Source of the DNA: a bacterium
Lineage (GTDB): Bacteria > Patescibacteriota > Patescibacteriia > Patescibacteriales > GWC2-42-12
Direction: 5' to 3'
Length of the DNA stretch: 32,154 nucleotides
Assembly: GCA_030649205.1 (NCBI GenBank)
Contig: JAUSGE010000009.1
Coordinates: 1-32,154 of the forward strand
Position numbers and translations under genes: made by a program. Below are positions 13,150 to 32,154 of the stretch, piece after piece (positions within the stretch are counted from its first letter, which is position 1; each line of letters starts with the position of its first letter). The notes under the pieces are model-generated. The model was given only the letters and a program-made list of their open reading frames with translations. It was not told the origin of the DNA and did not search any database.

Positions 13150-15933
13150 ATGCAAAAATTTAGTAAATACTCTAAAATTTTTTTACTAGCAATCTTTTTA
13201 TTGCTGGCCGCGGTTTTTTTGTCTCATTCCGTTCGCGCGGCCGCGGCTGACGTGGGATTAAACTACGCGGCCGGCACGGGCTTGAGCAATGCCCAGGATA
13301 TCAGGGTCATTATCGCTAAAATTATCAGGATCGCCCTGGGTTTTCTCGGCGTGATCGCGGTCAGCCTGGTTATTTACGCCGGCTGGCTGTGGATGACCAG
13401 CCAAGGCAATGAGGAAAAAATTGAGCAGGCGAAAAAGATCTTGAAGAACGCGGTTATCGGCCTGATAATTATTTTGTCCGCTTTCGCCGTCGTCAGCTTT
13501 ATTTTAAATCAGCTGACCGGCGAGGGCGGTAATTCCAATAAAGCCGGCGGCGGCGGGGGCGTAAAAAATTATGGCTTGTCGGCTTTAGGCAATGGCATAA
13601 TTGAATCGCATTATCCGGCGCGCGATCAAAAAGAAGTGCCAAGAAATGCCAGCATTATTATTACTTTTAGAGAGTTGATGAAGGCTGAAACTTTATGCAA
13701 GCCTAAAGATGCGACGCCAACTATCTGCGATGGCGATGATATTAACACAGATGTAATCAGGATTTTTAAGAAAAGCGATTCAGCCGTTTGCGTTACCGGT
13801 AGCTCGCCTGCGTCTGGCTGTACCTCTTTAGTTGACGCGAAAGTTTATACAACGGCTGACGGCAAGACTTATGTTTTCGCGCCAAAAAATTATTTGGGCT
13901 CGCCTTCGGAATATATTGATTATTCGGTTTATTTAAGCAAAGATTTAAAAAGAAAAACCGGTGATGGGGCATTTTTGGGTAAAACTCCAGAGGAATATGC
14001 CTGGAGTTTTGAAGTCAGCAATAAAATTGATTTGACGCCGCCGCAAGTTATAAAAAACAGCCTGGCGCCGGCGCCGGACAATATAAAAGATACAGTAGCG
14101 CCTGGTGCCGGCGCGTCAGCGACGGGCACGATTACGGTTAATTCAGAGCCGTCAATTTATAGCGAGGCGAAGGTATTGTTGGTAATGAAACCGATGGTGG
14201 ATGATCCCTCAGTAATTCCGCAAACAGATCCGCCGACTAAAATATTAGCTTCCTGGAGCGATGCCACGGCTACGGTTGATAAAAGTTGCGACCAAGGCGG
14301 AGAGTTCAAGGTCAATGTTGATAGCGCTAATAAGAGCATTATTAAATTAACAGATAGTAGCGGCATATCATTGGGCCAGGGCGCGGTTAGCGGTAAAACT
14401 GTTGCTTTTACCCTGTGTAATTTAAAATTAACGCTTAATTCCGGCAATTTCACGGAGGGGAACGAATGGACAGTTAAGATTAAAGCTATGACCGTTGCCG
14501 ATACCATAACCGCGGGAGATATAACCTATATCGCCAGTGATACGGCAGGCGGCGCTAATTTTGTAGTTGGAAATAATAATACAACCGCGAATAATTTAAA
14601 GGACGCAATAAATAACATATCATCTCCCAATCCAGACATTGCCGCTACTGCTTCGGGCAATGTTGTTACGGTGAAAGCCAAAGTCGCCGGTCTAGCCGGC
14701 AATAGCATTAATTTATCAAACAGTAACTCGGCGGCGCTAACGGTAGTCGCTATGAAAGACGGAAAAGATAAAATAGATGAGGTTAATAATACTTGCATAA
14801 AAAATCCTCCACAACTTAATTGTAAAACAGACGAGCCCATGAATTCGGCGATCCAAATTGAATTTAATGAAGCCATTATGCCCCTGGTAGTTTCCGGCGC
14901 GAGCGATGATTTAAAAGATTATATCAGAGTGGTTAATGCTGTCTCTATCCCAGTAGCAAAAGATGGCGCTTGTACGTCTGATGCAGACTGTCTGTCATAT
15001 AAATGCGATAACAATAAATGCGCGGGTAATTATTTGGCCGGAAAATTCGCGGTGTCCAATCAATACAGAACGGTTGATTTTTTATCAGACAAAGAGTGCG
15101 GTTTTAACGCCTGCGGGGAAAAAATTTATTGTTTGCCGCCTAATAGCCATTTGCGCGTTGAACTTTCCGCGGCCAGTTTGATTTCTTGCGCGAAGAATGG
15201 CAAAGCAGACGATAGTCTTTGCCAAGACAAGTCGCCGTTTAATACCTGCGACACAGCCAGAAAGTTTTGCCGTGATAGCGCGAATAAATATTTTCCTCAA
15301 GCCAATAAGGCCGGAACAAAAATCGTGGACGGCATAGTTGACGCGGCTTTTAATTCATTGGACGGCAATCGCAACGACTCGGCTTATGGTCCGGCCAGCT
15401 ATTATAATGAAAACGCGCCGGTTGCCGCAGAAGGCGATAGTTATCAGTGGTCGTTTTTTATCAGCAATAAACTTAATCTAACTCCGCCGAAAATTAAAAC
15501 GCCCACTATTCCGGTCAAGGACGAGTCTGGCGTTGATTTAAATAAAGCGATTACCATCAGTTTTGATAAATTAATGCTGTCATCGCGCTTAACCACCGGC
15601 AGTTTGACAATCAAAAATGGCAATGAAGACGTTCTGCATTATTTGCTTAATCTAAGAAGTTTTCTGGATCAGCCTTTGGGCTATTGGGCGACCAATCAGG
15701 GGAAACAAAGCGTTCCTGGCGCCAGTACCATAGATCAAACCGATGTTTATATTAATCATTCTCCCTTCAGCAATGCCGCCAGCTATAAAGCCCAAGCCGG
15801 GTCCGGCTTAAAAGATATTTATCAAAATTGTTTTAAGCCCTGCGCCGGTCCGGCCTGTTCGGGAGACGCTAATTCGGTTACCGATGGTTTGCCCTGCTGC
15901 TGCAACGGCGCTCGGGGAGAAAGTTGTCCATAA
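13150..15933 (+). CDS. Secreted VirB2/TrbC-like N-terminus fused to Ig-like and Cys-rich domains
   Basis: This is a 927-aa surface protein of unknown function. A signal peptide (1-31, ending SVRAAA) is followed by DVGLNYAAGTGLSNAQD and two hydrophobic helices (about 61-83 and 100-122) joined by a charged KKILKNA stretch, the VirB2/TrbC-pilin-like layout. Two SbsA-like (Big_5) Ig domains follow, one starting at GIIESHYPARDQKEVPRNASI and one at LTPPKIKTPTIPV. Residues about 446-540 (NTTANNLKDAINN, TASGNVVTVKAKVAGLAGNS) resemble a segment seen in phage tail proteins. Cys pairs occur in ACTSDADCLSYKCDNNKCAG, and the end is Cys-rich (CFKPCAGPACSG...CCCNG). It is paralogous at the N-terminus to the 16564 gene. 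A host-contact or appendage role is inference. Confidence 0.8.
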   Translation: MQKFSKYSKIFLLAIFLLLAAVFLSHSVRAAAADVGLNYAAGTGLSNAQDIRVIIAKIIRIALGFLGVIAVSLVIYAGWLWMTSQGNEEKIEQAKKILKNAVIGLIIILSAFAVVSFILNQLTGEGGNSNKAGGGGGVKNYGLSALGNGIIESHYPARDQKEVPRNASIIITFRELMKAETLCKPKDATPTICDGDDINTDVIRIFKKSDSAVCVTGSSPASGCTSLVDAKVYTTADGKTYVFAPKNYLGSPSEYIDYSVYLSKDLKRKTGDGAFLGKTPEEYAWSFEVSNKIDLTPPQVIKNSLAPAPDNIKDTVAPGAGASATGTITVNSEPSIYSEAKVLLVMKPMVDDPSVIPQTDPPTKILASWSDATATVDKSCDQGGEFKVNVDSANKSIIKLTDSSGISLGQGAVSGKTVAFTLCNLKLTLNSGNFTEGNEWTVKIKAMTVADTITAGDITYIASDTAGGANFVVGNNNTTANNLKDAINNISSPNPDIAATASGNVVTVKAKVAGLAGNSINLSNSNSAALTVVAMKDGKDKIDEVNNTCIKNPPQLNCKTDEPMNSAIQIEFNEAIMPLVVSGASDDLKDYIRVVNAVSIPVAKDGACTSDADCLSYKCDNNKCAGNYLAGKFAVSNQYRTVDFLSDKECGFNACGEKIYCLPPNSHLRVELSAASLISCAKNGKADDSLCQDKSPFNTCDTARKFCRDSANKYFPQANKAGTKIVDGIVDAAFNSLDGNRNDSAYGPASYYNENAPVAAEGDSYQWSFFISNKLNLTPPKIKTPTIPVKDESGVDLNKAITISFDKLMLSSRLTTGSLTIKNGNEDVLHYLLNLRSFLDQPLGYWATNQGKQSVPGASTIDQTDVYINHSPFSNAASYKAQAGSGLKDIYQNCFKPCAGPACSGDANSVTDGLPCCCNGARGESCP

Positions 15934-16545: not shown

Positions 16546-16563
16546 GCAATGACAAGGTATAAA

Positions 16564-19500
16564 ATGACAAAAAAAATAAAAAAAATATTAATAGTTTTCA
16601 GCCTGTTAGCCGCGGTTTTTGCTGTGGCTCATTTCGCGCTGGCGGCGACCGCTGATGTGGGGCTGAATTACGCGGAAGGTACGGGTTTAAGCGCGGCCAG
16701 CGACCCCAGAGTTATCGCGGCTAACATTATTAGGATCGCGCTGGGCTTTTTAGGCATTATCGCGGTCGGCCTAATTATTTATGCCGGCTATTTATGGATG
16801 ACGGCTAATGGCGAAGCGGAAAAAGTGGAAAAAGCCAAGAAGATTTTAATCGGCGCGGTGATCGGGCTGTTAATTTGTTTAGCGTCATTCGCCATTGCCA
16901 GCTATATTTTATCCAGATTAACTGAAGCTACGGGCGGCGAGAATACTGATCCTTTCGCCTGCAGCGGTCCCGACTGCCCCGGCGGCGGGCCTGACTTTTC
17001 TTTTGGAGTTTCCGGAACCATACCTGGAGATCAGGCAAAAAATGTGATAAGAAATGTAAGAGTTAGAGTTTTTTTGAACGACGCTATGGCTGATAATATT
17101 GACCAAAACGTTTTAAATAATAATTTTAAAGTGGAAAAAATCGCTTTTATTAATTCAGCCGATGAAACGGAAACCAATTTGCCTGAAATACAGCCGGTGG
17201 AGGGTGTGGTGGAATCAGGCGGCGGCCGGCGGGAAATTAATTTTAAAAGCAATGCGAATTGCGGCGATGAAAATAATACGCAGAACTGTCTTGACTCTTG
17301 GAGCAAATATAAAGTTACTGTTAACGGCGGGAGCGGAATAAAATCAATCAACAACCAAAGCCTAAGTTGCGCGGGTAATTCCTGCAAGTTTGTTTTTTCC
17401 ACCAATAATCTAATAGATACCAGCGGTCCGACCGCTGGGATAATATCACAGCAAATTTGCCGCGATGACGGCTCGCTTAAGCTCGGCGCCAATACCGTAA
17501 CCGGCTGGGCGCGGGATGACGCGGGTTTTTCCAGTCTGGGATTTTTAGAACAAAAAGTCGGCGAGTCCAGAATAAAAACGGACATAGTTAAGCCTGGGAA
17601 AAAACAAACTTATCAATCCGAGTCTTATCAATATGATACAAAAGCCATGGCCGTGGGCGATCAATACAATTTTAGTTTTAGCGCTTATGATTTGGCTTAC
17701 CACAAAGCGGATAGCAGTTTTACTACTACGATCAGGCCCGGCCATTGCTGTAATGGCATAAAAGATCCAACTGAAACCGCTATTGATTGCGGCGGAGAGT
17801 GCGGCGCTTGCGACGGCGCGGCCTGCGCTAATGATATAAGCGTACCGGCAACTTGCAGTGATAATTTGTGCGCTTCGCAAACCTGCCGTTCTGAAGGCTC
17901 AACCGCCGCTAAATGCTCTGCCGCCGGTTACGCGGCCGGAACTACAAACTGCTGTCTTTGCCAGAGTCCGCCGGTTATCACCGGCATTTCTCCGGCCGGC
18001 GGATTTTGTAAAAATGAACCTAATGAAGCCTGTTTAGCGGACAGCGATTGCGCCAGCGGCGACAGTTGCGATCAGAGCGCGCCTAACGGCAAGGCTGGTA
18101 ATTTTTTTACAATTTACGGCAGAAATTTTGGCGCCAGCCCGGGCAATGGCGGAGTCTACGCCAGCAGTACATTAGGCTGGGTTAAAGCCAAATTAGCTAA
18201 CGACTCTGCGGCCGGCAATGTTCAATGCACAAATGTTTGGACTGATAATAAAATTACCGCGATTGTTCCGAGCGGCGCGCAAACCGGAGCCATAAAAATT
18301 GTAAAGTCCGACTCGGCGTCCACTACCAGCGTGTTTGATTTTAAAATAAATGATATTGACAGGCCGGGCATTTGTTCATTAGATCCTGATAGCGGAAAAC
18401 AAGATGAAGTTATAAATTATTATGGCATAAAATTATCAGGCGCCAGCCCTTATTTTGGAAACATAAATAATAGAATTGCCGGAGTAGGAGCGAGTTTTAA
18501 TGATAATAAAAAAGGAACTGCCAAGGTGCCAAACATAACAGCCGGTAATACGAGCAGTTTTGCCCTAAAAGATAAAGTCTATAGCAATTATTTGGATTTT
18601 ACTAAAGATAAAGAATTATATAAGGGTCCGTTTATTTCTTCGTTTGATCCTAAGGAAGGTCCGGCCGGACAATATGTAACCATTAACGGCGGCGGCTTCG
18701 GCGCTACAGCCGGAGAGGTTTATTTCGGCGATGCTATTACCGGCAAGCCAGCCAGTTTTGATTTTCCTAAAATCTGCGCGGATTCCATTTGGAGCGACAA
18801 GCAGGTGATTGTAAAAGTTCCAGAAAATTTGCAAAATCGTAGAAATTACAAAATAACCATGAAGATTGGAGCTTGGCCGGCAATTGATACGACTTCAATT
18901 CAGCCGGAGATTGACAGGAATTTTATATTTAACAGCGCCTCGCCCCTAAAGCCGAGTTTATGCAAAATAGACCCCGCAATGGGCAAAATAAATACTCGGG
19001 TAAGTTTGTATGGCGAATATTTTGGCGAGAAGAAAAATCCGGCTGTATTAATTGGCGACAAACCTTATCCTTTAATTAGATTTCAAGCCGATAAAGATCA
19101 AACAGTTTTTGACTATTGGGACAAAGATAATGACCCAAAAATAACCGGAATTAGACCGGACAAAATAATTACTAAAGTGCCTAACCAAGCCGTAACCGGT
19201 CCGGTTAAAGTGGTTCAGACTGTAACGGTCAGTACTCGGGCTGGCCAGGGGGTTAGCCAGGTAATAGGCAACGGCAAAAATTTTAAAGTCGGGATTTGCG
19301 AGACAAAAGATGACTGCGGTTCAGTCAGTCTATGTTGTTCAGCCGGCACGCCTTATGCCGGACAATGCAAAACCGGCACAGTAGAGCAAGATGTTTGTTT
19401 TCCTGAAATAAAGTCCTGCGTTTATGAATGGAACTTCAGCACCGGTGGAAGTTCTTCCGCTTGCGCCAGCGATAAAGATACTGATAATAATCCGGCTACT

Positions 19501-22500
19501 CTGTCAGAATGCGGAGACCCGGAATCATGTTCCGGCTATGGCAGTTCGCTGGCGAGTTGTTATGGCCAGATGTGCCCCAACTCGCCCGGGCAATGCTCGG
19601 GCAATTCCGGATCGGTTGCTACCGGAGTGAAATGCGGCAATGATGTCTGTAAAAAGGCGGCCGGTTGTCTGGATAAAGACGGAGTGACTTTGCTCTGTAC
19701 CTATAGCGCAACTCTTAATAGATGCGTAAAAAATTCCGTGGCCTGTAATTTAACCGATAGTATTACTGACGCGAACGGCGTAAAATTTGCCCTAAAGTGC
19801 GGCACGGTTGATAATAAAAATGTCTGGTATTATGACAGCAACAAAACTTGCGCCTCAAGCGGCTATACCAAGAGCGCTGATAAAAACAAGTGCTTAGGCT
19901 CGGCTTGCGAGACCTGCTCGTCCGGATTTGTCTGTCAAAAAGACGGCGGCGCCGGCGTCTGCGCGGTTAACAATAATATTTGTCCAGCCGGTTCAACTTG
20001 CGATCCAGCTAAAAATGAATGCCTTAAAACAACACCGCAGTCAAGCTGTGAATGCTGCTGCAGTATCAGCCAGAATACGGCCAGCGGCAACCCGGGCTGC
20101 TGTACCGGCCTTAAATGCGGCGACACCTGCGGGTCTGACACCAGTTTAACTGATGGCCCTGATACTAACGATGATGGAATCGGCGACAGCAATGCCGGGC
20201 AGGGCAAATGCACCGGCTGTACGGTTAAAAACGCGAACGGCCAGGTTAATCAGGCCGCGTCCAATGCCAGCTGTAATTGTTCCGGTACTAGCGGAAAATT
20301 CTGCGATACTAGCGGCGCGGGCGGCTTGGGCACTTGCAACGATTGTACGCAATTATCAACCGCCGGACTCTGCTCCGGTTTGGGCGCGGGTAGCTGTTGC
20401 TTGGACGCAACAAAAAGCGATGTTTGCCGCGGCGTTAGCGCGGGCGGAAGCACTGTGAAAGACACGGATTTTCAGGAAGTATATCGCCAGGACTTTAATA
20501 CTCCCGGTGATTTGGCCGGCTGGACACCCTCCGCGGAGTGCGCCGGGCAATACGCGGTTAAAGACGGTTTTCTTGAATTTCAAGGCAACAACGATTGCAA
20601 TTTAGGCGTAGAGTTTAATAAGTTTAATTTTAGGGTCGGATCAGAATATAAAATAAAAATAAAAATAAAAAGAGACGACACTAATGGCGCGATTGCTCTT
20701 GGTTTAGGTACGGCCAGCGGTAATTACACCATTAACCCGAGCTCGGCAAACAACGAAAAAAATTATGAATTTGTGTTTGGACCGGGTTTAATACCAACAA
20801 TTAGCGCGCGCTACAATCATATTAAGTTAAGCATTGATAAAGTTAATGATAGTTACAAAGTTGATGGGTTCTATCAAGTAGATTATATTGCCATTGAAGA
20901 GAAAAGTCCTTATTCTTTCTGCGCCTATTATAGCTGCGGCTCGGGCGCAGATGCCGCTAATTGCCAGGGCGCGCAGAAAACCGGAACTTACCGCACCAAA
21001 GATTGCGGCAACCAATGCCAGCTCTTTCCGCAATTCGGTTTGGAGTGCAACAACAAAACCGCCAAGGCCGATACGTGCGATGCCAATGTTTGTACGAACT
21101 TCAGTTGCTTAGATGAAAACGGCTATGGTGTGGGTAAGCCCAACCCAAGTTACGAGCCTACCGCCAAAAATAATACTTGCGGTACGTGCTGCTGTGATCC
21201 TAAGGCCGGTAGTGATCAGTGTAAGGCTGTCAACAGCAAACTATCATGCGTGGCCGATAAAGGCAGTTGTTCCGGCGCTAATCGCGGCTTATGCTGTGGC
21301 TGCAGCGCGGACAGCGATTGCGGCAGTTCGGCTACGACCGGTTGTGGTACGGATACTTGCTGTAGCAGTCGGCCGACTGTGACGGCCACGGTGCCGGTAG
21401 CCGGGGCAGGCAACAGCGATGACAAAACAAAAGTCTGCCGCAATGCTTTAATTCAAGCTGATTTTAATCGGCCCATGTCGCTTAATACTTTTAGCGGCAA
21501 TGTGATCGTGGCCGGAGAATATGGCGCTGATCAATGTCCGGACAATACCACCTATTTAACCGCCGCCTATAAGCCAACCTTTTTTGCCAAGGTAAAATTT
21601 TGGTTAGCCAAACTGCCGCTGATTGATAAGCTGTTCGCGTCCGCGGCCCGAGCCGACGCGGTGGACGGAAATTTTTGCGCCATCAAGGGCACGGTCAATG
21701 GAGTTAATAATAAAGATACTTCCACTCTGGAATTTGCCCCCTCGCAAATCCTGGAGCCAAAACGTAAATATTATGTTATAATAAAAGGCGATACCAATAC
21801 CTCGGACGCGGTGAAAGAAGGCGTCTTAAGCGTCGGCGGTATTAGCATGAAGCCTGTGCTGGTGGACGAAAAAACTTTTAATGGTATTACTTACAAGGGA
21901 AAAATTTGGTCGTTCACGACCATGTCGGATCAAGGCCCTAATAAGGGAGTTTGCGAAATCAGCAAAGTTATAATTGATCCGGACTCTCATCTGTTTCAGA
22001 CGAATAAAAATGATCCGAACGATGATGATCCGAAAAAAGATACCTTTGATAAGATAGCTGATAGCGATAGGGTGTTTACAGCCACGGCTCTGAATGTTCA
22101 AGGCCAGGCTTTGGCGCCGGTTAAAGAATATGGCTGGAATTGGATTTGGTCTACGGATAATAACAAGGTTGCTGTTGCCCGGCCGGTTGCCAACGGACCA
22201 GGATATTTCGGCAGAGAATTAATCAGGGCTAATGATAATATTACCGAAGGTGAAACTTACGTTAATGCCAAAGCGGAAATTACTATATCGTCAATTGTTT
22301 CATCGCCGATCGGCAAGACAATACCCGGCAAAGCCAAAGTTTATGTTTTAGTCTGTTCTAATCCCTGGCCCACGGTTGAGCCAAACGGAGAATGGCGTCC
22401 ATTTCGGGATTATGGCTTAAAATGCAGTGATCCGAACGGAGATTGTTCCGGGCCGTATTCAACAGAAGGCAGTTCATGCGGTGAGTCCGATAAATGCCAA

Positions 22501-23652
22501 TATAATAACTGCACTACTCAGAGTGCTTATTGCGATAACACAAATTTTGAATTATATTATTGCCGCGACGCGGGCGGGCCGGGCACGGCCGATGATTTGC
22601 CCGCGATTTTAAGTGATTCAGCCGTGATTAGGGGTAGAAGCGCAAATTTGAAATGCGATGATGGAACCGGAAGCTGTGAAGGCAAGGCACAAGACGACGA
22701 CTGCAGTGATGACAGCGGCAAATGTGAAGTTGATATTTTAAAAGAATTTTATTTTTTCCGGGAAGGCAAGCCGTCAGCCGCCGGAGATTTTAAGGTCAGC
22801 GTCTTGCCTCGAGGCGGGGCAGTTTCGGCCAGCTGGGATTCGGTGACTGGCGCTACCGGCTATAAAGTCTATTATGGAACGGCCAGCGGCAAATATACTG
22901 ATTCAGTTGAGGCAGCGGCACAGATTGAAACAACACAAACTAAAGAAATTACCGGTTTAACCAATGGCAAAAAATATTATTTTGCCATGACTTCCTATAA
23001 CGCGCAAAAAGCCGAGAGCGGATATTCGGATCCAATTAGTGTTACGCCAGCCGACAGCCAAGGTCCGGCAGTAGCGCCAACTCTATTTAAGGCAACACCC
23101 GGGAATATGAAAGTAGACTTAGAATGGGCTAATAATTATAGCGAAACGGTAAGCTTCAGGGCATTTTATAAAGCCACAGACGATTGCAACGATCAAGTAA
23201 ATTTTGGCAGTTCAATTCCGGTTGCCACTTCCCTGGCCGCAACTTCCACAGCCGCAATTAATAATCTGGCCAATGGCATAAATTATTGTTTTGGCGCAGT
23301 GGCTTACGATTCGTCCGGCAACAAGAGCGCCACCACTACGGCTTCGGCCAGGCCGTTCGCGCCAGCGGCTAATTTAGCTTTAGCGGGTGTTGGCGATGGG
23401 CTGGTGAAATTGTCATGGAGTTCAGCTTTAGGCGCGGCAAAATATAAAATATATTATAATAGAAGCGGAGATTCAGTTATTGCTTCTGCCGCCACATCCA
23501 CGCCCGGCACAACGGCTAATCCGCAAATTATTTTCGGCTTAACCAATGGCACGGCTTATAATTTTATGATTAGATCAGCGGGTGTTGATTCAGGCGGCGG
23601 CGACATAGAAAGCGCTAATTCCAATAAAATCAGCGCTACGCCGAGTAAATAA
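16564..23652 (+). CDS. Giant secreted VirB2-like-headed protein with TIG, Cys-rich, Big_5 and FN3 domains
   Basis: About 2362 aa. The N-terminus repeats the 13150 layout: signal peptide ending AHFALAA, DVGLNYAEGTGLS, and two membrane helices (about 56-79 and 95-117). Then come a Big_5-like domain (SGTIPGDQAKNVIRN), a Cys motif CCNGIKDPTETAIDCGGECG, and three to four TIG/IPT repeats beginning near 469, 600, 689 and 796 (PFISSFDPKEGPAG, GEYFG). A very Cys-rich region (about 920-1290) precedes a jelly-roll-like segment (about 1305-1440, YRQDFNTPGDLAGW) and more Cys. Next is another Big_5 domain (from about 1603) carrying an odd hydrophobic insert (1673-1700). Three fibronectin-III repeats occupy about 2074-2360 (GLTNGKKYYFAM, GLTNGTAYNFMI). 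I start at ATG 16564, because the earlier ATG lies in repeat sequence. Likely an adhesin or surface fibre, disulfide-stabilised; function unproven. Confidence 0.85.
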   Translation: MTKKIKKILIVFSLLAAVFAVAHFALAATADVGLNYAEGTGLSAASDPRVIAANIIRIALGFLGIIAVGLIIYAGYLWMTANGEAEKVEKAKKILIGAVIGLLICLASFAIASYILSRLTEATGGENTDPFACSGPDCPGGGPDFSFGVSGTIPGDQAKNVIRNVRVRVFLNDAMADNIDQNVLNNNFKVEKIAFINSADETETNLPEIQPVEGVVESGGGRREINFKSNANCGDENNTQNCLDSWSKYKVTVNGGSGIKSINNQSLSCAGNSCKFVFSTNNLIDTSGPTAGIISQQICRDDGSLKLGANTVTGWARDDAGFSSLGFLEQKVGESRIKTDIVKPGKKQTYQSESYQYDTKAMAVGDQYNFSFSAYDLAYHKADSSFTTTIRPGHCCNGIKDPTETAIDCGGECGACDGAACANDISVPATCSDNLCASQTCRSEGSTAAKCSAAGYAAGTTNCCLCQSPPVITGISPAGGFCKNEPNEACLADSDCASGDSCDQSAPNGKAGNFFTIYGRNFGASPGNGGVYASSTLGWVKAKLANDSAAGNVQCTNVWTDNKITAIVPSGAQTGAIKIVKSDSASTTSVFDFKINDIDRPGICSLDPDSGKQDEVINYYGIKLSGASPYFGNINNRIAGVGASFNDNKKGTAKVPNITAGNTSSFALKDKVYSNYLDFTKDKELYKGPFISSFDPKEGPAGQYVTINGGGFGATAGEVYFGDAITGKPASFDFPKICADSIWSDKQVIVKVPENLQNRRNYKITMKIGAWPAIDTTSIQPEIDRNFIFNSASPLKPSLCKIDPAMGKINTRVSLYGEYFGEKKNPAVLIGDKPYPLIRFQADKDQTVFDYWDKDNDPKITGIRPDKIITKVPNQAVTGPVKVVQTVTVSTRAGQGVSQVIGNGKNFKVGICETKDDCGSVSLCCSAGTPYAGQCKTGTVEQDVCFPEIKSCVYEWNFSTGGSSSACASDKDTDNNPATLSECGDPESCSGYGSSLASCYGQMCPNSPGQCSGNSGSVATGVKCGNDVCKKAAGCLDKDGVTLLCTYSATLNRCVKNSVACNLTDSITDANGVKFALKCGTVDNKNVWYYDSNKTCASSGYTKSADKNKCLGSACETCSSGFVCQKDGGAGVCAVNNNICPAGSTCDPAKNECLKTTPQSSCECCCSISQNTASGNPGCCTGLKCGDTCGSDTSLTDGPDTNDDGIGDSNAGQGKCTGCTVKNANGQVNQAASNASCNCSGTSGKFCDTSGAGGLGTCNDCTQLSTAGLCSGLGAGSCCLDATKSDVCRGVSAGGSTVKDTDFQEVYRQDFNTPGDLAGWTPSAECAGQYAVKDGFLEFQGNNDCNLGVEFNKFNFRVGSEYKIKIKIKRDDTNGAIALGLGTASGNYTINPSSANNEKNYEFVFGPGLIPTISARYNHIKLSIDKVNDSYKVDGFYQVDYIAIEEKSPYSFCAYYSCGSGADAANCQGAQKTGTYRTKDCGNQCQLFPQFGLECNNKTAKADTCDANVCTNFSCLDENGYGVGKPNPSYEPTAKNNTCGTCCCDPKAGSDQCKAVNSKLSCVADKGSCSGANRGLCCGCSADSDCGSSATTGCGTDTCCSSRPTVTATVPVAGAGNSDDKTKVCRNALIQADFNRPMSLNTFSGNVIVAGEYGADQCPDNTTYLTAAYKPTFFAKVKFWLAKLPLIDKLFASAARADAVDGNFCAIKGTVNGVNNKDTSTLEFAPSQILEPKRKYYVIIKGDTNTSDAVKEGVLSVGGISMKPVLVDEKTFNGITYKGKIWSFTTMSDQGPNKGVCEISKVIIDPDSHLFQTNKNDPNDDDPKKDTFDKIADSDRVFTATALNVQGQALAPVKEYGWNWIWSTDNNKVAVARPVANGPGYFGRELIRANDNITEGETYVNAKAEITISSIVSSPIGKTIPGKAKVYVLVCSNPWPTVEPNGEWRPFRDYGLKCSDPNGDCSGPYSTEGSSCGESDKCQYNNCTTQSAYCDNTNFELYYCRDAGGPGTADDLPAILSDSAVIRGRSANLKCDDGTGSCEGKAQDDDCSDDSGKCEVDILKEFYFFREGKPSAAGDFKVSVLPRGGAVSASWDSVTGATGYKVYYGTASGKYTDSVEAAAQIETTQTKEITGLTNGKKYYFAMTSYNAQKAESGYSDPISVTPADSQGPAVAPTLFKATPGNMKVDLEWANNYSETVSFRAFYKATDDCNDQVNFGSSIPVATSLAATSTAAINNLANGINYCFGAVAYDSSGNKSATTTASARPFAPAANLALAGVGDGLVKLSWSSALGAAKYKIYYNRSGDSVIASAATSTPGTTANPQIIFGLTNGTAYNFMIRSAGVDSGGGDIESANSNKISATPSK

Positions 23653-25955: not shown

Positions 25956-26336
25956 ATGATTCGCGTTTCCAGATTATTTAAAAGTTTCGGCTATGCCCTT
26001 AAAGGCTTGCTTAAGACTTTTCGCGAGGAGCAAAATTTGCGCCTGCAAACCGCGGCCAGCCTGATAACTGTGGCGCTGGCGGCCTATTTTCGCTTGAGCC
26101 GGACCGAATGGGCGATGCTGGTTTTGGCAATTTGCCTGGTGCTGATCGCGGAAATTATCAACAGCGCCGTGGAAAGAGTTACTGATGTCTTAAAGCCCAG
26201 GATAAACAGCTACGTTAAAGAGATAAAAGATATCATGGCGGCCGCGGTTCTGCTTGCATCCTTAACCGCGATTATCGTCGGGATAATTATTTTTTGGCCG
26301 CACGCGTTTACCCTGTTAAATAATTTTAAATTTTGA
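25956..26336 (+). CDS. dgkA: Diacylglycerol kinase / undecaprenol kinase
   Basis: This 126-aa integral membrane kinase of the prokaryotic DgkA family, in Gram-positive relatives phosphorylates undecaprenol and so recycles the wall-lipid carrier. SFGYALKGLLKTFREEQNLRLQ is the amphipathic N-terminus. Three membrane helices follow (about 31-48, 51-70 and 93-117). The catalytic AEIINSAVERVTDVL and KEIKDIMAAAVLL motifs are present. It lies in the ybeY-dgkA pair; the spacer is filled by the repeat copy. The next gene starts 1 base after its stop. The substrate preference is inferred. Confidence 0.93.
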   Translation: MIRVSRLFKSFGYALKGLLKTFREEQNLRLQTAASLITVALAAYFRLSRTEWAMLVLAICLVLIAEIINSAVERVTDVLKPRINSYVKEIKDIMAAAVLLASLTAIIVGIIIFWPHAFTLLNNFKF

Positions 26337-29348: not shown

Positions 29349-29391
29349 GCCGTCATTCCGGCCGTAGCGGAGCGGAGAGCCGGAATCCAGA
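29349..29391. repeat. dRS3-like element after ftsZ
   Basis: CGTCATTCCGGC...GCCGGAATCCAG with an inner CGTAGCGGAGCG stretch. It belongs to the same family as 15941 and 16427 but is a diverged copy. It could act as a transcript-end hairpin although no T-run follows. Confidence 0.7.
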
Positions 29392-29421: not shown

Positions 29422-32154
29422 ATGAAGAGGAGGACTTCATTATTAATCATGCCAATTTTATTATTGGTCTGGTTTTTTGTTTTGGGCGCGGCGGCTAAAG
29501 CCGCGGTCCAACCCGATCATCTCTGGCATTTTGACGAATGTGGAGGCAGTGTGTTAAAGGACAGCGTCGGCGCGGAAGACCTGCCGCAAAATTCGCTCTG
29601 GATTGTGGGCAAATCACAGTGCGCCATCAGCCAGCCCTGGCAAGCGCAGTATAGTATAGACAAAATTTTCAGTTCCCCTTTGCCGGCTGGCGAACTGACA
29701 CTGTCTTTTTATTGGCGCAACAGCGCATACCCCAATGAAGGCAGAAACCACTTATATTTAAAAAAGGCCGACGGCGCGATTATGGCCGGCGTGAGAACGT
29801 CCATTTACACCAGAAATTTATTCTTTGACGGCGGCGCCACCAGCACTATCGCTACCATGCCGGGCGACAGCGATTGGCATTTAATCACCATAACTTACGG
29901 CCGCGGCAGTCTGGCCTTTTATCTTGACGGTTTAGCCAAGGCGTTTTATCCCGGCGATTTTACTATGCACGGCCTGGTCAGCCGGCTGGAGATCGGGGGT
30001 GAAAATTGGCCGGTGGATATGGACGAACTGGCCATCTGGCCAAAGGCATTAAGCGCCGCCGAGGCGGCAGAAATTTATCAAGCCGCCGCGCCGCTGGAGC
30101 CATACACGCCCAGGCCGGCCCAGGAGAAAGCGCGCTTGGTCCATTCGTGGCATTTTGACGAAGGAGCCGGCGCCATCGCGGCCGATAGCGCCGGCGCTAC
30201 CGCGCTGAACCCGATTGTGAAATGGACCGCGGGCAAATTCGGCGTCGGCATTGAACATACCTGGGAGAACGGCTATTTAATCAGCCAGGAGTTGGATCAG
30301 CCGATTGACAGCAAGGACTTGTCAATTGATTTTTGGTGGAAGAACAATGCGTATCCTAACGAAGGCCGGGTTAGCTTGAAGCTGCAAAACAGCGCCGGAG
30401 TGGAAGTTTTCGGCATCAGGCCGAGCATGTTTGGCGGCGGTTATTATTTTGACGGTGCCGCCGCGTTCATTAGCAATCTTATTCCCGGAGACGGCGCGTG
30501 GCATCATCTGGCGCTGGTCTATAATTCACATAATTTTTACCTGGCCTTTTATGTTGACGGCGTGGAAAAAATCAGAGCGCCCAAAGTTTGGTTCAGGCAG
30601 CCGATTACTAAATTGGTGATTAGCGGGGAAAATTGGTTTTACGGCATTGATGAGCTGGCGATCTGGCAGGGCGCGCTAAGCCAGCAGGAAATTGCCGATT
30701 ACTATAACTCCGGCCAGCCGCATGGTTTGGCCGCTCCCGCGCCCGACCCGGTGATCATCGTGCCCGGTATTTTAGGCAGTTGGAATATTTCCGGCCGCTG
30801 GCAGATTGATCCGATTTTTCATACCTATGATAACTTGATGGAAGCGCTGATCGCGGCCGGGTATAAAGAAGACAGTCTGGGAGAAGCTAAACCAATGTTA
30901 TTCACTTTTCCCTATGACTGGCGGCAGGACAATAATCTGACGGCGAATTTGCTTAAAGAAAAAATTCAGCAGGTTAAGGAGATCACCGGCGCCAGCCAGG
31001 TGGACATCGTGGCGCATTCAATGGGCGGGCTGGTTGCCCGTTCGTACGCGCAAGGCAGTGATTATCAAAATGATATTGATCAGGTAATTTTTTTAGGCAC
31101 GCCGCATCGAGGAGCGGTGGATACATATTTAAAATATGAGGGAGCAGCCTTTACTGGACAATGGGTATGGCCACAAAAATTTTTATTTCAAATAGAAGCC
31201 GCGCTGAACGGTTATTTTGACTTAGTTGATTACATTAGAGTTAAAGTGCCAACCGTAGAACAATTATTGCCGGTGTATGATTATTTAAAAGACCAACAGC
31301 CGGATAATTCCTATCAACTACGGCCATATCCGTTAAACTATCCGCAGAATATTTATTTGGAAGATTTAAACAGCCAAGCAGGCGTTGATCTGCTAAAACA
31401 AAGAGTAAAAATTACTAACATTGTAAGCGATTTAGGCGCGTCCAGCACTTTAAATTATCTGCGCGTCATAGCCGACCCTGATCCAAGCGATAATAAATGG
31501 CAGTCCGGTTACCCGGAAAATTTGGACAACAATTTATATAGTCTGGAAATGGGCAATGGTGATGATACTGTGCCGCTTAAAAGCGCGAATAGCCTGACCG
31601 GCGTGGAGACAATAGAAAGTGTCAGCGCAGACCACACTAATCTGCCCACGATCATGCAAAAAGAAATTATTAAAACTTTGACCGGAACAGCGCCGGATAA
31701 TTATTTTAACAGTAAAATCACTTCTACTATTAAACGCTGGGCGTTTTTCCGCGTCTATTCGCCGGTTGATTTCGCGGTCATAGCGCCGGATGGAAAGAAG
31801 ATTGGCAAAGATTTTTTAAACAACGTGGAGATTAACCAAATCCCGGATGCGTTTTACAGCGGTTTTAATTCTGAAGCCGAATTCGTTTTAATTCCTAATC
31901 CTTTAGACGGGGAATACAAAGTAGAGTTGCAAGGCGTGGCTAAGGGCGGCGAATATACTCTGGTCAATAGCCTGATTGACGGGGATAAAGAAATCAGTAA
32001 AGAATTTACCGGTACTATCGCGCCGGAGCAGGAAAGAGAATTTACCGTTGACTATACTGCCGCGGCCGATAATCCAATCAGTGATTTAGCTCCGGTAGAT
32101 ACTGTGCCGCCGGTCATCACTATAACTTCACCCCTGGAAAACTCCCAGTATCCG
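29422..32154 (+). CDS. Secreted LamG-LamG-lipase (LCAT-like alpha/beta hydrolase), partial at window edge
   Basis: The frame is open for 911 codons to the right edge, so it is absent from the ORF track. MKRRTSLLIMPILLLVWFFV and GAAAKA form a signal peptide. Two similar LamG/concanavalin-like domains follow, starting at HLWHFDECGG and HSWHFDEGAG; both contain NxAYPNEGR, DGDxxWHxLxxxY-type strands and ENW...DELAIW. From VPGILGSW (448-455) an LCAT-like alpha/beta hydrolase begins, with the nucleophile Ser533 in AHSMGGLVAR, a likely acid at Asp714/715 in GNGDDTVPL and His738 in SADHTNL. The triad therefore looks intact. After the hydrolase come beta-rich segments and an Ig-like start (DTVPPVITITSP) at the edge. 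Likely role: extracellular ester or phospholipid cleavage with LamG-mediated binding; the substrate is inferred only. Confidence 0.85.
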   Translation, partial: MKRRTSLLIMPILLLVWFFVLGAAAKAAVQPDHLWHFDECGGSVLKDSVGAEDLPQNSLWIVGKSQCAISQPWQAQYSIDKIFSSPLPAGELTLSFYWRNSAYPNEGRNHLYLKKADGAIMAGVRTSIYTRNLFFDGGATSTIATMPGDSDWHLITITYGRGSLAFYLDGLAKAFYPGDFTMHGLVSRLEIGGENWPVDMDELAIWPKALSAAEAAEIYQAAAPLEPYTPRPAQEKARLVHSWHFDEGAGAIAADSAGATALNPIVKWTAGKFGVGIEHTWENGYLISQELDQPIDSKDLSIDFWWKNNAYPNEGRVSLKLQNSAGVEVFGIRPSMFGGGYYFDGAAAFISNLIPGDGAWHHLALVYNSHNFYLAFYVDGVEKIRAPKVWFRQPITKLVISGENWFYGIDELAIWQGALSQQEIADYYNSGQPHGLAAPAPDPVIIVPGILGSWNISGRWQIDPIFHTYDNLMEALIAAGYKEDSLGEAKPMLFTFPYDWRQDNNLTANLLKEKIQQVKEITGASQVDIVAHSMGGLVARSYAQGSDYQNDIDQVIFLGTPHRGAVDTYLKYEGAAFTGQWVWPQKFLFQIEAALNGYFDLVDYIRVKVPTVEQLLPVYDYLKDQQPDNSYQLRPYPLNYPQNIYLEDLNSQAGVDLLKQRVKITNIVSDLGASSTLNYLRVIADPDPSDNKWQSGYPENLDNNLYSLEMGNGDDTVPLKSANSLTGVETIESVSADHTNLPTIMQKEIIKTLTGTAPDNYFNSKITSTIKRWAFFRVYSPVDFAVIAPDGKKIGKDFLNNVEINQIPDAFYSGFNSEAEFVLIPNPLDGEYKVELQGVAKGGEYTLVNSLIDGDKEISKEFTGTIAPEQEREFTVDYTAAADNPISDLAPVDTVPPVITITSPLENSQYP

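Follow-up and report, generated by a model that had tools for sequence, protein, structure and literature searches.

Lipases, phospholipases, polyester depolymerases and acyltransferases are built on one common fold, and the closest described counterparts of the enzyme part of the protein treated here belong to these groups. The family of LCAT and group XV phospholipase A2 (PF02450) shares with the lipase encoded on contig C29 the alpha/beta-hydrolase domain, the PGI.GS entry motif, the HSMGG nucleophile, the GDxTVP acid and the order Ser-Asp-His of the catalytic residues. Unlike LCAT and the group XV enzyme, which are both absent from the top 50 structure matches of its enzyme half, the C29 family adds beta, Ig-like and helical domains behind the hydrolase and exchangeable modules in front of it. 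The bacterial lipases (BlEst2, the family I lipases and Lipase_2, PF01674) provide the best structure matches, with PF01674 also scoring above its cut-off, but identity to them is mostly 13–18% and the full-length TM-score is low. None of the bacterial lipase matches, as far as these were examined, combined several domains with a variable front. The polyhydroxybutyrate depolymerase PhaZ7 (NF050060) has the same fold and nucleophile region, although the C29 lipase falls far below the cut-off of the equivalog model. For the front of the protein, a counterpart exists in surface proteins of the LTD-LamG type from the same order, in which the double LamG module recurs (with up to 61% identity, in a protein of genome G003), but there the pair is C-terminal, following a lamin-tail domain, and no lipase is present.

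With respect to the lifestyle of CPR bacteria, fractions rich in these organisms were found to be enriched in lysolipids, and uptake of lipids from other bacteria was proposed (PMC7242380). For Vampirococcus, a predatory CPR bacterium, disruption of the host membrane by a secreted phospholipase was proposed (PMC8080830). Acquisition of a lysophospholipase by transfer has been reported as well (PMC12455944). The general idea is therefore not new. The lipase family described below and the exchange of its front modules were not found in the literature searched, which covers few subscription journals.

The window, i.e. the whole stretch of DNA that was analyzed, comprises all of contig C29 (32,154 nucleotides) of a genome of 1.22 Mb that is distributed over 50 contigs and 97.7% complete. 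The lipase open reading frame (29422–32154, forward strand) counts 911 codons and is free of stops up to the end of the window; no RNA families were found in the window. In the initial annotation the product was described as a secreted lipase of the LCAT type with two LamG domains and a catalytic triad, a description that is confirmed by the Pfam domains, the leader and the conserved residues (Table 1). Judged from its sequence, the product is a real ester hydrolase, predicted to be exported and probably active.

Table 1 Features of the lipase gene at the end of contig C29
Feature	Position	Strand	Basis
Predicted signal peptide, residues 1–28	29422..29505	+	KRR, hydrophobic core, AKAA; read from sequence
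First LamG domain, ~residues 32–222	29515..30087	+	Pfam PF13385; approximate boundaries
Second LamG domain, ~residues 241–430	30142..30711	+	PF13385, best stretch residues 293–425; start approximate
LCAT/lipase-type alpha/beta-hydrolase, ~residues 438–757	30733..31692	+	Pfam LCAT and Lipase_2, AlphaFold2, Foldseek
Module junction	30738..30753	+	Abrupt start of homology to C25 copy (blastn C29 vs C25)
Ser533, nucleophile in AHSMGG	31018..31020	+	Kept in 60/60 aligned relatives
Asp714, catalytic acid	31561..31563	+	Kept in 61/61 relatives
His738, catalytic histidine	31633..31635	+	Kept in 60/61 relatives
All-beta domain after hydrolase, ~residues 772–878	31735..32055	+	Model strands; aligned in close relatives
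141 bp identical to C25 end	32014..32154	+	Longest identical run; holds Ig-like domain start

The N-terminus (MKRRTSLLIMPILLLVWFFVLGAAAKAA) resembles, by eye, a type I signal peptide, and this leader is common to lipase copies that have quite different front modules. Two LamG domains had been proposed to precede the hydrolase, and both stretches indeed score above the cut-off for Laminin_G_3 (PF13385; 75.3 bits, E 7.4e-21, cut-off 27.6). The structural model of the LamG pair, built from two sequences only, has a pLDDT of 48, a low confidence for reading a jelly-roll fold from it. Such a pair of front domains would probably serve in surface binding. Between ftsZ and the lipase gene, at 29374–29390, the sequence GGAGAGCCGGAATCCAG resembles a dispersed bacterial repeat; it occurs once in the window, and an exact search of the loci examined with its first 15 bases returned the same place only.

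The hydrolase domain is recognized by Pfam both as LCAT (PF02450; 43.3 bits, cut-off 21), with a match that covers only model positions 67–169 of 392 instead of most of the family model, and as lipase class 2 (PF01674; 37.6 bits, cut-off 20.3). In an alignment of 61 sequences, including relatives down to about 27% identity, the Ser-Asp-His triad is conserved in essentially all members, in agreement with the claim that it is intact. Of the two neighboring aspartates that had been considered as the acid, Asp714 can be assigned this role because Asp715 varies among the aligned relatives. A structure-based search had been suggested for this part of the protein, and an AlphaFold2 model of residues 437–911, built with relatives, was obtained with a pLDDT of 91.6 and a pTM of 0.89. 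Ser533 is located in this model at a strand-helix elbow, between strand 91–96 and helix 98–108. The nearest solved structures found with Foldseek are lipases (BlEst2, family I lipases), Tle4 and PhaZ7, with modest TM-scores; the full-length structural alignment is weak, with values of 0.19–0.39 over the query for the top 50 matches. When sequences were compared by profile, group XV phospholipase A2 (4x90, at 1.5e-13) and LCAT (at 5e-11) were among the best matches of the family. A lipid is the likely substrate.

A second lipase gene is present in the same genome on contig C25, of which the protein is 89% identical to the C29 copy from residue 439 onwards. Its front is parallel beta-helix-like and unrelated to the LamG front of C29, and in blastn comparisons the homology between the two is limited to a short signal peptide stretch and everything past the junction. 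The two contigs terminate at the same base after 141 identical bases. De Bruijn assemblers, which often use words of at most 141 bases, break at a repeat of this kind, and this accounts for the truncation of the C29 lipase. When the missing rest of the gene was sought in the own genome with the tail of a relative as query, only the start of contig C38 (L143 1–153) was retrieved; it encodes a diverged tail end of the lipase family (41% identity) that is not assignable to the C29 copy and is perhaps the end of a third one. What may follow the hydrolase can be seen in a near-complete relative from genome G011, a protein of 1097 residues in which an Ig-like domain and a helical tail are present, and of which the final residues appear out of step with other relatives. 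The tails of full-length relatives score 17.3–20 bits with FIMAH (PF22888), below the cut-off of 24.8, which indicates resemblance only. Behind the hydrolase, the beta domain is predicted to be followed by an Ig-like domain and then by a FIMAH-like tail of helices, the latter being seen only in complete relatives.

One scan yielded at least 446 related loci, and the best 80 of these are nearly all from Patescibacteria; the named close relatives among the matches listed are Parcubacteria and Falkowbacteria MAGs. A match to the lipase family occurs in 63 of 287 genomes spread over the phylum (22%), and with the whole protein as query 61 of 98 relatives gave a match, a number in which LamG-only matches are counted. 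Of the 69 front modules compared, 17 were identified by Pfam as beta-helix, the most frequent kind, 4 as LamG and 3 as kelch. The architecture had been called unusual, which is correct for the exact combination, but the protein belongs to what is apparently a large and undescribed patescibacterial lipase family with varied front modules.

The histories of front and enzyme part (the engine) do not agree. In a tree of the engines, copies from one genome fall together (in G000, in G003 and, for two of its copies, in G009), and C29 is paired with C25 (support 97/96). The LamG front of the C29 copy is 68% identical to that of a G011 lipase, and 67%, over the part compared, to that of a G009 lipase. 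Grouping of the C29 copy with the G011 LamG copy in the engine tree was rejected (p-AU 0.0002), which together with the C29/C25 pairing suggests that front modules have been exchanged between lipases. The fusion of LamG domains to a lipase is not an assembly artefact, since it is independently present in G011. A similar situation is found on two long contigs of G003, where two lipase copies are 95% identical over 109 bases around the leader, have unrelated fronts, and are again 88% identical to the end. From these sequence comparisons, front-module exchange among the lipases can be considered well supported. The mismatch itself may have arisen by a module swap or by homogenization of the engines through gene conversion, and both would fit. 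In the C29/C25 pair, one stretch of identity is longer than would be expected (p 0.003, on synonymous codons), with the caveat that it is such identity that determines where contigs end. No unusually long run was found in the lipase pairs of G003 and G009, and conversion as a general rule was rejected, the signal being confined to C29/C25. One of the G009 lipases gives the impression of being a mosaic of two others. An exonuclease gene lies upstream of the LamG lipase in G011, of beta-helix lipases in G003 and G005, and of a more distant lipase gene in G008; the exonuclease locus was considered as the original lipase site in the source genome and discarded, since the orthologue on contig C22 is not adjacent to a lipase.

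Regarding lipid metabolism, the organism had been suspected of lacking fatty acid synthesis of its own, and this view is strengthened by single-family searches of the 97.7% complete draft genome in which neither ketoacyl synthase nor FabA/FabZ was found, with the proviso that diverged enzymes may escape. A lone FabD-like acyl transferase is encoded on contig C25 (L051 6079–6966; PF00698, 111.8 bits) in this genome without a recognized ketoacyl synthase. It is conceivable that the lipase frees fatty acids, which are then imported and built into the cell's own phospholipids, as would suit an exported lipase-type enzyme in an organism without fatty acid synthesis and the notion that CPR bacteria obtain lipids from neighbors (PMC7242380). 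However, PlsC, PlsY, AMP-binding acyl synthetases and DegV/FakB were all missing in single-family searches of the draft genome, which can miss diverged enzymes but were positive for several control genomes in each case. Released fatty acids would have no recognized use, because no known enzyme for their activation or esterification was found; scavenging in its simplest form, as free fatty acids, is thus not supported, and we regard this reading as very unlikely. Should the enzyme serve to nourish the cell, it would more likely yield lysolipids or transacylated lipids than free fatty acids. Lipid scavenging is plausible only in such a revised form, in which uptake of lysolipids or whole lipids, or transacylation, would be possible. 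That a host cell is the target is something we infer.

Beta-helix, kelch and LamG domains are frequent carbohydrate binders, which would be in line with a non-lipid ester as target (polyhydroxyalkanoate or an acylated polysaccharide), the fronts then binding carbohydrates or polymers. Even though PhaZ7 is matched both by sequence and by structure, such a target appears unlikely: the PhaZ7 equivalog model (NF050060) gives 29.4 bits against a cut-off of 450, and the E-values at which the family profile finds LCAT and group XV phospholipase A2 are better. The enzyme may also act as a weapon, a surface-bound phospholipase that harms membranes of hosts or competitors, with nutrition being secondary. 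The solved structures closest to the model include the type VI effector Tle4, the proposal for Vampirococcus (PMC8080830) is of this kind, and several copies with varied fronts would suit changing targets; but Tle4 is only one among many lipase matches, and neither an immunity gene nor a delivery system was recognized next to the lipase gene, and a role of this kind seems improbable to us.

The explanation that we prefer, at a probability of about 0.6, is that the product of the C29 gene is an exported serine ester hydrolase related to LCAT and the lipases, with one conserved engine and exchangeable fronts, which acts on the acyl chains of extracellular lipids. The acyl chains would be cleaved or transferred outside the cell, the front modules would set the target, and the useful product would be a lysolipid or a remodeled lipid instead of a free fatty acid. 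Because one conserved engine is combined with exchangeable fronts, each genome could carry several versions for different surfaces. A more far-reaching possibility, which we offer as speculative and rather doubtful, is that the family supplies membrane lipids via lysolipids or via acyl transfer between host and own lipids outside the cell, and that cassette-like front swaps retarget it to other hosts. If this were true, neither acyl activation nor an acyltransferase would be needed inside, because lysolipids would be made, or acyl chains transferred, outside the cell. The lipase family provides a concrete and widespread candidate enzyme, front exchange on one enzyme offers a route to studying how small-genome bacteria might change targets, and with no known acyl-activating enzyme found in the draft genome, fewer uses of the product come into question.

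Elsewhere in the window, at 25956–26336, a small membrane protein is encoded that by eye is diacylglycerol- or undecaprenol-kinase-like, and it is possibly relevant to the use of scavenged diacylglycerol. Close to their N-termini, two large proteins of 927 and 2367 amino acids (13150–15933 and 16549–23652) have a domain similar to a type IV secretion pilin, with the best stretches at residues 51–118 and 56–120, respectively; domains of the Ig-like or fn3 type lie nearer their C-termini.
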